A stretch of DNA of 64,000 nucleotides from Oceanicola sp. D3 (GTDB taxonomy: Bacteria; Pseudomonadota; Alphaproteobacteria; Rhodobacterales; Rhodobacteraceae): assembly GCF_006351965.1 (NCBI RefSeq), contig NZ_CP040932.1, positions 1,922,001-1,986,000 on the forward strand. The letters run 5' to 3'. The position numbers and the translations under genes were made by a program. The notes under the pieces were generated by a model, which saw only the letters and a list, made by a program, of their open reading frames with translations, was not told the DNA's origin and did not search any database. Within the stretch, counting starts at the first letter, position 1, and every line of letters starts with the position of its first letter. Positions 1 to 24,021 of the stretch are shown here, in pieces.

Positions 1-123
1 CCAGAATGTTGTGCGGGCACTTTCCGATTTGCGACATGGCACGCGCTTTTGCCGACTTATAGCGGGGATTTGCACCAGTGTGGCGCGAAAAATATGCATG
101 AAGGTCATGCGGTTCTTTCAAAT

Positions 124-138
124 GTTCGCCGTATGTTC
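124..138 (+). promoter_or_regulatory. LexA (SOS) operator upstream of the radical SAM gene
   Basis: The sequence GTTCGCCGTATGTTC is an exact GTTC-N7-GTTC direct repeat, the LexA operator type known from Rhodobacter and other alphaproteobacteria. It lies directly before a TATATT hexamer (139-144), with a weak TTTCAA hexamer 17 bases further upstream (116-121), so LexA bound here would block a sigma70-type promoter. A further GTTC at 112-115 is off register. The only gene downstream is the SPL-like radical SAM gene starting near 169. Confidence 0.7.
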
Positions 139-168
139 TATATTCACCCCAAGCAGCGAGGTGCGGCT

Positions 169-1278
169 ATGGGATTTGAGGAGTCAGCGGCTGGCGGGTG
201 GACCATGCCAGAGCATCGGCGGCGAGGGCGCGCGGCGCTTTCGAATGTGGCCAATCGGTTTGACGCCTACGCGGTTGAGCGTGTGGACGACGGCTGGGAA
301 AGCGGGGCGGAGGAGGGGCTGCCACCGCTGCGCACCGAGGTGGCGCTGGAGAACCCGCGCAGGATCATCAGCCGCAACAGCTCGCCCGATCTGAGTTTCG
401 ATCGCTCGGTGAACGCCTATCGCGGTTGTGAGCATGGCTGCATCTACTGTTTTGCTCGCCCGACGCATGCCTACCTCGGCTACTCTCCGGGCCTCGACTT
501 TGAAACCAAGCTGGTGGCCAAGCCCAGTGCGCCGGAGCGGCTGGCGGCCGAGTTGCGCAATCCACGCTACGAGGTGGCCCCGATCGCCATGGGCACCAAT
601 ACCGACCCGTATCAGCCAATCGAGCGGACGCATCGGATTACCCGGAGGCTGCTGGAGGTGCTGCGGGCGCATAATCACCCTGTGGGCATCGTCACCAAGG
701 GCAGCCTGATTGAGCGTGATCTGGATATTCTGGGCGATATGGGCTGGGAGGGGCTGGCGCGGGTTGGCATCTCGATCACCACGCTGGATGACGGGCTGGC
801 GCGCAAGATGGAGCCGAGAGTGCCCGGCCCGGCGCGGCGGCTGAAGATGATTGAGCGGCTGGCCGGGGCGGGGGTGCAGGTGCGGGTGATGGCCTCGCCG
901 ATGATCCCCGGGCTGACGGACCACGAGCTGGAAAAGATCATGGAGGCGGCGCGAGATGCGGGTGCGGTGGCGGCGAGCTATATTGTACTGCGGCTGCCGC
1001 GCGAGGTCTCGCCGCTGTTTCGTGACTGGCTGGAAGCCAATGTGCCGGATCGCGCCAGCCGTGTGATGGCGCGGGTGCGTGAGATGCACGGCGGGCGCGA
1101 TTATGACCCGGAGTGGGGCCGCCGGATGAAGGGGCAGGGCACCCATGCGGCGCTGCTCTCGCATCGCTTTGAGGTGGCCAGCAAGCGGCTGGGGCTGAAG
1201 CGCAACCTGCTACCGCTGCGCTGCGATCTGTTCAAGGTGCCGCCAAAGCCGGGGGATCAACTGGACCTGTTTGGCTAG
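169..1278 (+). CDS. PA0069-family (spore photoproduct lyase-like) radical SAM protein
   Basis: Cytoplasmic radical SAM protein of the group related to spore photoproduct lyase SplB and typified by Pseudomonas PA0069; the substrate is not established, though repair of damaged DNA is the usual proposal. The 4Fe-4S ligands are C87, C91 and C94 (CEHGCIYC). An N-terminal RRRGRAALSN stretch, also characteristic of the family, precedes them. I chose the ATG at 169 because GAGG lies 7 bases upstream; the ATG at 205, immediately before the conserved Arg-rich stretch, is an alternative. The gene stands alone, convergent with the membrane-protein gene that follows, and has a LexA box 30 bases upstream, so it is probably DNA-damage induced. 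The exact reaction is unknown. Confidence 0.88.
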   Translation: MGFEESAAGGWTMPEHRRRGRAALSNVANRFDAYAVERVDDGWESGAEEGLPPLRTEVALENPRRIISRNSSPDLSFDRSVNAYRGCEHGCIYCFARPTHAYLGYSPGLDFETKLVAKPSAPERLAAELRNPRYEVAPIAMGTNTDPYQPIERTHRITRRLLEVLRAHNHPVGIVTKGSLIERDLDILGDMGWEGLARVGISITTLDDGLARKMEPRVPGPARRLKMIERLAGAGVQVRVMASPMIPGLTDHELEKIMEAARDAGAVAASYIVLRLPREVSPLFRDWLEANVPDRASRVMARVREMHGGRDYDPEWGRRMKGQGTHAALLSHRFEVASKRLGLKRNLLPLRCDLFKVPPKPGDQLDLFG

Positions 1279-22833: not shown

Positions 22834-22862
22834 TTGCTTTGTTCTCGTTTTGATCGCATAAC
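22834..22862 (+). promoter_or_regulatory. recA promoter with embedded LexA box
   Basis: TTGCTT (22834-22839) and CATAAC (22857-22862) are spaced by 17 bases, a good sigma70-type promoter. The spacer holds GTTCTCGTTTTGATC (22841-22855), a GTTC-N7-GATC variant of the alphaproteobacterial LexA box. Repressor bound there would exclude RNA polymerase until DNA damage triggers LexA cleavage. The layout matches that of the LexA box at 124-138. Confidence 0.65.
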
Positions 22863-22867
22863 CTGCG

Positions 22868-22882
22868 GAACAAGGGGTGAAC
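22868..22882 (+). promoter_or_regulatory. second LexA box in the recA leader
   Basis: GAACAAGGGGTGAAC is an exact GAAC-N7-GAAC, i.e. GTTC-N7-GTTC on the other strand. It lies 5 bases downstream of the recA -10 element, around the expected transcription start, and 50 bases before the recA start codon. Confidence 0.7.
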
Positions 22883-22932: not shown

Positions 22933-24021
22933 ATGGCCACAGCGAAACTTCTGGACATGGGCAAAGCAGGCAACAGCGATAAGCAAAAGGCGCTCGACAG
23001 CGCACTTTCTCAGATCGAGCGGCAGTTCGGCAAGGGCTCCATCATGAAGCTCGGCGGCGACAATGTGCTCAAGGACATTGAAGCCACCTCGACCGGCTCG
23101 CTCGGCCTCGACATTGCACTGGGAATCGGCGGCCTCCCAAAGGGCCGCATCATCGAAATCTACGGCCCGGAAAGCTCGGGGAAGACAACGCTCACGCTGC
23201 ACTGCGTGGCTGAAGAGCAGAAAAAGGGCGGCGTCTGCGCCTTCGTCGATGCCGAACACGCGCTCGACCCGCAATATGCCCGCAAACTCGGCGTTGATCT
23301 TGACGAGTTGCTCATCTCGCAGCCCGACACTGGCGAACAGGCGCTTGAGATCACCGATACGCTGGTGCGCTCCGGTGCCGTCAGCCTCGTTGTCGTCGAC
23401 TCGGTGGCGGCGCTTACGCCGAAGTCCGAGCTGGAAGGCGACATGGGCGACAGTTCCGTTGGTGTGCATGCCCGCCTGATGAGCCAGGCCATGCGCAAGC
23501 TCACCGGCTCGATCAGCCGTTCCAACTGCATGGTGATCTTCATCAACCAGATCCGCATGAAGATCGGCGTGATGTTCGGCAGCCCCGAAACCACCACCGG
23601 CGGCAATGCGCTGAAGTTCTACTCCTCTGTCCGTCTCGACATTCGCCGCATTGGCTCGATCAAGGATCGCGACGAGGTGGTCGGTAATGCGACGCGGGTG
23701 AAGGTGGTGAAAAACAAGGTCGCACCGCCGTTCAAGCAGGTTGAGTTCGACATCATGTATGGCGAGGGCATCTCGAAGATGGGTGAGCTGGTCGATATGG
23801 GCGTGAAGGCCGGTATCGTCGAGAAGTCCGGTGCCTGGTACTCCTACGGCGACGAGCGGATCGGCCAGGGTCGCGAAAACGCCAAGCAGTTCCTGCGGGA
23901 CAACCCCGACATGTCGCTTGAGATCGAAGACAAGATTCGCGCCTCCCATGGGCTCGATTTCGACATGCCGGGCGGTGAAAAGGCCGCCGCTGGCGAGGAT
24001 GACGACCTTTTTGAAGGCTGA
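22933..24021 (+). CDS. recA: recombinase RecA
   Basis: 362-residue DNA strand-exchange and LexA-coprotease protein. Visible are the Walker [10 protein letters not shown], the L2 region [20 protein letters not shown], and the acidic C-terminus ending DDDLFEG. The ATG at 22933 fits homologues starting MATAKLLDM; the longer reading frame starting at 22816 covers the promoter and both LexA boxes and is not coding. A clear terminator follows at 24043. Confidence 0.98.

Follow-up and report, generated by a model that had tools for sequence, protein, structure and literature searches.

The PA0069-family radical SAM gene described here, from Oceanicola sp. D3, is very probably controlled by LexA through an SOS promoter, as judged from its upstream sequence and that of its orthologues. 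The gene lies in a window of 64,000 nucleotides, the whole stretch of DNA that was analysed (G000:C1:1922001-1986000 of a 4.05-Mb genome), where it runs from 169 to 1278 on the plus strand, stop codon included, and encodes 369 amino acids; an alternative ATG is located at 205. As the preliminary description had stated, an exact copy of the alphaproteobacterial SOS motif GTTC-N7-GTTC, GTTCGCCGTATGTTC, is found at 124-138 on the plus strand, and it sits between a -35-like hexamer, TTTCAA (116-121, plus strand), and a -10-like hexamer, TATATT (139-144, plus strand). The hexamers are 17 bp apart and the box occupies this spacer, 30 bp upstream of the ATG at 169. Based on the position of the -10 element, transcription is predicted to start at 151 on the plus strand (box+27), where the sequence reads AAG. 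A possible Shine-Dalgarno sequence, GAGG, was recognized by eye at 158-161 on the same strand, 7 nt before the ATG at 169. The box, its position, its conservation, and the presence of lexA and recA in the genome are observed, as are the protein family and the predicted fold, and from there LexA binding, induction by damage, the transcription start, and DNA as substrate are inferred.

An exact match to this motif is not above chance when taken alone. The window contains two, and at least two also occurred in 35 of 100 shuffles; genome-wide there are 71, versus 97 for a reversed-pattern control. Since the reversed control was higher, the motif count was dropped as evidence for a LexA site, and conservation across orthologues was examined instead. 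Boxes were also scored with a matrix of the spacer, for which the boxes of 129 other orthologues served as the training set. By this measure the window box ranks 10th among the 71 exact matches of the genome, and those at lexA and recA score lower, at ranks 19 and 22, respectively. Its spacer score falls at the 12th percentile of the orthologue boxes, and the window box is best described as a fair, not strong, candidate LexA site.

The motif scan that had been proposed for Rhodobacterales was run on 198 Rhodobacteraceae genomes, taken from a larger group. The protein was matched in 142 of these, and upstream DNA was scanned for 141 orthologues, with a degraded copy containing stop codons (G157) excluded. 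In 130 of the 141 orthologues, an exact GTTC-N7-GTTC lies between -200 and +20 relative to the match start, compared with a mean of 0.8 and a maximum of 3 after shuffling the same intervals and 2/141 for the reversed pattern; in place of random genes, the comparison used flanking DNA, base shuffles, and the reversed pattern. There are 132 matches in the 141 promoters, with 130 in the direction of the gene and two opposite, at a median of -52 from the match start. A second collection was also searched, and an exact box was present within -300 to +40 in 76 of the 80 named loci among the matches listed, which may overlap with the first Rhodobacteraceae set. Across these 80 loci, 78 matches fall in 23.8 kb of sequence from -300 to 0 versus 12 in 650 kb elsewhere, and two of those 12 are just past -300 (L173 and L208). 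For recA, which served as the positive control, an exact promoter box was found in 29/30 (the best 30 of 61 genomes), making the box at the PA0069-family gene in Rhodobacteraceae nearly as constant as that of recA.

Eleven of the 141 promoters lack the exact box. In eight of these, a site that differs from the motif at one position lies between -27 and -124, and L099 has only 57 bp of upstream sequence before the contig ends. L118 and L032 are without a good site despite enough upstream DNA, which counts against the LexA reading: nothing within one mismatch was found in the 189 bp upstream of L118, though its genome (G054) has lexA, and in L032 (genome G167) the sole candidate, at -141, is poor and carries one mismatch. 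Two further points weigh in the same direction. Orthologous promoters share ancestry, so that 130/141 does not represent 130 independent events, and the spacer of the window box is weaker than in approximately 88% of orthologues. In the gene neighbourhoods of the 80 listed named loci plus the window, no frame cluster occurred in more than 32 loci; these neighbourhood clusters are noisy, and the count excludes two clusters covering the gene itself and antisense frames.

The genome encodes lexA at G000:C1:1719584-1720267 on the minus strand (185.3 bits against a cut-off of 110.95), with an exact box at 1720303, 36 bp beyond the lexA match. The proposed SOS control of the window gene is supported by this and by the box in 130/141 orthologue promoters. 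Within the Rhodobacteraceae, lexA was matched in 185/198 genomes. When the genomes are restricted to a completeness of 90% or more and a contamination of 5% or less, the gene is present in 126/169 with lexA versus 1/5 without (Fisher p 0.02), where the lexA-absent side rests on five genomes. The sole lexA-less carrier in that set, G167, is complete and has no exact box. Seven genomes have a gene match with no lexA match (G008, G147, G157, G158, G159, G167, and G196). Four of them, G147, G158, G159, and G196 (64-95% complete), keep an exact box, which argues against the LexA reading, and missing sequence may or may not explain this; G008 has a one-mismatch site. In G157, which is 80% complete and has no lexA match, only weak fragments of the gene, interrupted by stop codons, are present at G157:C24:8594-8925.

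The recA promoter in the window had been described as having the same arrangement, which holds in part. A box does lie in the promoter spacer of recA (coding sequence 22933-24021, plus strand), but this box, GTTCTCGTTTTGATC at 22841-22855 on the plus strand, has one mismatch, and the exact LexA box, GTTCACCCCTTGTTC, is located downstream on the other strand at 22868-22882. Paired sites are seen at recA in the Rhodobacteraceae, consisting of a spacer site with at most one mismatch and an exact opposite-strand site approximately 20-30 bp further down, with both present in 27/30 loci (counted by hand).

When the Rhodobacteraceae promoters are aligned on the box, a T is found at box-8 in 88% and a TA at box+15 in most. 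At box-8, the position of TTTCAA in the window, TTG is present in 61/129 orthologue promoters, and at box+15, the position of TATATT, the pattern TA...T is present in 72/129. In 90/129 relatives, an in-frame ATG is found precisely at the predicted transcription start (box+27); in 27 of the remaining 39, the distance from the box to an in-frame start codon is 25-29 bases (counted by hand). Since the ATG coincides with the predicted start of the transcript, most Rhodobacteraceae relatives probably make leaderless mRNA from this promoter. The window gene departs from this majority arrangement: its box+27 reads AAG, and the next in-frame ATG is that at 169, after the GAGG.

Members of the family are also found well beyond the Rhodobacteraceae. 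The model for the family, NF033668, scored over its cut-off in 111/299 sampled Pseudomonadota genomes, 12 of them in Rhodobacteraceae, 60 elsewhere in the class, and 39 outside it (counted by hand). Promoters were examined for all 39 outside the class and for 21 of the 60, picked to spread over families. A LexA motif of other proteobacterial classes is CTGTN8ACAG, and CGAACN4GTTCG is the Gram-positive LexA motif. The use of GTTCN7GTTC as the LexA motif of the class is partly supported by PMC8565304. Outside the class, CTGTN8ACAG was found within -200 to +20 in 28/39 promoters (shuffle mean 0.1, maximum 2), which fits the earlier suggestion of SOS control in a second class under a different LexA motif; GTTCN7GTTC and two control patterns were each absent from the same intervals of these 39. 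In other alphaproteobacterial families the pattern is the reverse, with GTTCN7GTTC in 18/21 promoters within -200 to +20 and in 19 within -300, and CTGTN8ACAG in none of the 21. Individual examples include Aeromonas caviae, a gammaproteobacterium, with CTGTATATATAAACAG at -37, i.e. 37 bp before the match, and Sinorhizobium meliloti, Paracoccus versutus, and Azospirillum brasilense, each with GTTCN7GTTC at the PA0069-family gene. Among actinobacterial relatives (three loci, a sample too small to support a conclusion), a one-mismatch CGAACN4GTTCG was found in Streptomyces and Arthrobacter, and in the Tsukamurella relative this motif was not found within two mismatches.

The 11/39 outside-class promoters without CTGTN8ACAG within 200 bp, which include all four from family f36, speak against the LexA reading. 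By family, the hits are 0/4 in f36, 0/2 in f57, 0/2 in f28, and 0/1 in f51; f41 adds one miss among its three promoters and f61 one among its two, the f61 miss having a site at -292. In one f36 promoter there is AATTAGTAATAATACTAATT, a sequence that resembles the Xanthomonas LexA site. Promoters of f36 and f57 (L263, L267, L277, L272, and L276) have none of the tested LexA motifs despite a full-length gene match. For f36 and f57, this may reflect either loss of control or the use of some other motif.

The window protein matches NF033668 (PA0069 family radical SAM; model type "hypoth_equivalog", which carries no assigned reaction) with 495.9 bits over residues 19-368, where the cut-off is 360. 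This agrees with the family assignment made earlier from the sequence; the protein is a member by score, and no difference from the family was seen. A Pfam scan at E 0.001 returned Radical_SAM only, with no photolyase domain of the flavin DNA photolyase type. The cluster motif CX3CX2C is located at residues 87-94, and C87, C91, and C94 are invariant in 47 family sequences. An AlphaFold model generated from these 47 sequences has a pLDDT of 79, with residues 1-52 and 97-109 below 50. The closest known fold to the model is that of spore photoproduct lyase (SPL; PDB 4fhc and others), with Z 19.6-20.1 (at Z 20.1, 3.5 Å over 275 residues), and all other folds score 15.8 or less; these include NifB, SuiB, SkfB, RlmN, and viperin. 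Foldseek also placed SPL first to sixth (E 2.2e-09). The relationship to SPL that had been claimed is consistent with SPL being the best match of the predicted model, at Z 20.1, and the two share the cluster motif. Sequence identity in the model-SPL alignments is 13-15%. SPL was not found by phmmer with either the whole protein or a core fragment, nor with a profile of the 47 family sequences at E values up to 1, and with hhalign, 175 residues of the SPL chain aligned weakly, at a probability of 8.7. The link between this family and SPL rests on the predicted model.

The hydrogen relay of SPL uses C140, the hydrogen-donor cysteine, and Tyr98. Titles of SPL entries in the PDB name mutants of both C140 and Y98. 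In terms of column conservation rather than structural placement, no conserved counterpart of C140 exists among the 47 family sequences, where the most frequent cysteine column outside the cluster is occupied in 14/47. The residue after the third cluster cysteine, which corresponds to Tyr98 in SPL, is Phe in 43/47 and Tyr in 4/47, and is F95 in the window protein. Judging from the model and these columns, the PA0069 family appears to be an SPL-like scaffold without these defining SPL residues. With no conserved counterpart of C140 and a Phe at the Tyr98 position, the label "SOS-induced photolyase" is unproven.

Nine of the 71 exact sites in the genome were inspected for the gene behind them. 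One precedes a second radical SAM gene, a TIGR03916 match (putative DNA modification/repair radical SAM protein; 584.6 bits, cut-off 343.5) at L147:1518-2741, near 3420324 of G000:C1. This gene starts 2 nt after the box at L147:1501-1515, where the motif is on the opposite strand and is the top-scoring of the 71. Other genes of the genome directly behind an exact box are found at L142, L143, L145, and L146: a Y-family polymerase-like gene, identified as ImuB by eye and with weak Pol IV matches below the cut-off; a PcrA/UvrD-type helicase, from a partial reading; an ImuA match below the cut-off; and nrdJ, which encodes the adenosylcobalamin-dependent ribonucleotide reductase NrdJ and has a box starting 137 bp before it. 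At L149:823-1479, a gene whose product begins MCNLYSNK, SRAP-like by eye and with no NCBIfam match, ends 21 bp before an exact box (1501) that ranks second in the genome.

In the mechanism we propose, LexA bound at 124-138 in undamaged cells would fill the space that RNA polymerase needs and block transcription. After DNA damage, RecA filaments would induce LexA self-cleavage, the site would be vacated, and the derepressed gene would be transcribed from about position 151. It is highly improbable that the motif is instead a chance match or a relic and that the gene is not LexA-controlled here. Such a reading would draw on the genome-wide count of 71, which is fewer than in the reversed control, on the weak spacer, and on a promoter-to-start spacing unlike that of most relatives, but it sits poorly with a box at the correct spacer position of an orthologous promoter, a genome that has lexA, and the high conservation. 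The product is a radical SAM enzyme with a predicted SPL-like fold. Its likeliest substrate is a lesion in DNA or an intermediate of repair, and the reaction would proceed by means other than SPL's own cysteine-tyrosine hydrogen relay.

The nature of that reaction could be read in other ways. Were the protein a true SPL or another direct photoproduct-reversal enzyme, the SOS box would serve UV repair; the predicted fold is nearest to SPL (Z 20.1 over 275 residues, Foldseek E 2.2e-09), CX3CX2C is common to SPL and the family, and a homologue is termed a predicted photolyase in PMC3323433. We consider this improbable given that only the three cluster cysteines are conserved in the 47 sequences (next column 14/47), that the Tyr98 position is Phe in 43/47, and that identity to SPL is 13-15%. 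It is possible but doubtful that the enzyme is SOS-induced and has RNA, a protein, or a nucleotide, not DNA itself, as its direct substrate. The substrates of similarly folded radical SAM enzymes are diverse (NifB, SuiB, SkfB, RlmN, viperin), and SOS regulons can hold non-repair genes, with a box here starting 137 bp before nrdJ; against this, SPL stands clearly above the other folds, and LexA motifs occur at family genes in several classes, as they do for repair genes. We lean toward DNA as the direct substrate of the enzyme. A broader proposition could equally hold or fail as a whole: that PA0069-family enzymes of Pseudomonadota are mostly SOS genes kept under LexA while its motif changed; that, with an SPL-like radical SAM fold lacking the cysteine-tyrosine relay, their reaction on DNA damage is peculiar to the family and neither that of photolyase nor that of SPL; and that in Rhodobacteraceae the -35, the LexA box, the -10, and the start codon form a fixed unit predicted to yield leaderless mRNA.

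PA0069 itself is reportedly in the LexA regulon of P. aeruginosa, and Rv2578c is likewise said to belong to a published LexA regulon. No paper linking either gene to LexA was found in the open-licence literature, and PA0069 appears in PMC7485682 as a chromosome tag site. The SOS link of the gene was already proposed in 2012, and the window gene is a sound instance of this known regulatory link. In alpha- and betaproteobacteria, "splB" was predicted to be SOS-controlled by Sanchez-Alberola 2012 (PMC3323433). That study makes the same evolutionary argument from divergent LexA motifs, covers multi-chromosome genomes with an alphaproteobacterial set including Paracoccus denitrificans, Rhodobacter sphaeroides, and S. 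meliloti, and states that the trait was not observed in Gammaproteobacteria. The splB of PMC3323433 is likewise homologous to SPL and has predicted LexA sites in alpha- and betaproteobacteria alike, and we infer that it belongs to the NF033668 family. Our survey differs in that it covers a single family with 141 genomes and, beyond it, other classes and Aeromonas. In the open-licence literature, from which most subscription papers are absent, we found no earlier survey of this scale, and no earlier report of sites in Gammaproteobacteria, of the module with the start codon, or of the SPL residues that the family lacks.

Radical SAM genes under LexA control also occur elsewhere. According to PMC8565304 and PMC7739468, SplB or radical SAM proteins are in the SOS regulons of Bacteroidetes, Balneolaeota, and Gram-positives, and the gene in PMC8565304 is of COG1533; these resemble the window gene in being LexA-controlled radical SAM genes but are from other phyla and have other motifs. 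In Streptomyces venezuelae, a LexA regulon table (PMC9380542) contains vnz_31145, a "Radical SAM protein" with an SOS box at -61, which is likened to the window gene by description only, both being radical SAM genes with an SOS box. SplB-like proteins in SOS gene neighbourhoods are discussed in PMC3765255, and P. fluorescens SplB is raised by tea polyphenol along with DNA-repair genes, a response not tied to LexA in the portion of PMC5435343 available. For Dinoroseobacter shibae, LexA sites were predicted with a matrix (PMC6473078); the main text does not contain "radical SAM", "photoproduct", or "splB", and the supplementary list may name the gene. The available text of PMC13384398, on Caulobacter, held nothing on the gene under the words searched.

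As a regulatory discovery the result is modest; as evidence it is solid. A gene kept under damage control across classes while the LexA motif changes is very likely useful against damage. The literature (PMC3323433) refers to a homologue as a photolyase, yet the family is without conserved SPL relay residues, and many SOS responses may therefore include a so far unassayed repair reaction. The regulation also shows enzymologists which harmless laboratory organisms would suit a knockout and when to look for this reaction: after mitomycin C or UV, and in lexA mutants.
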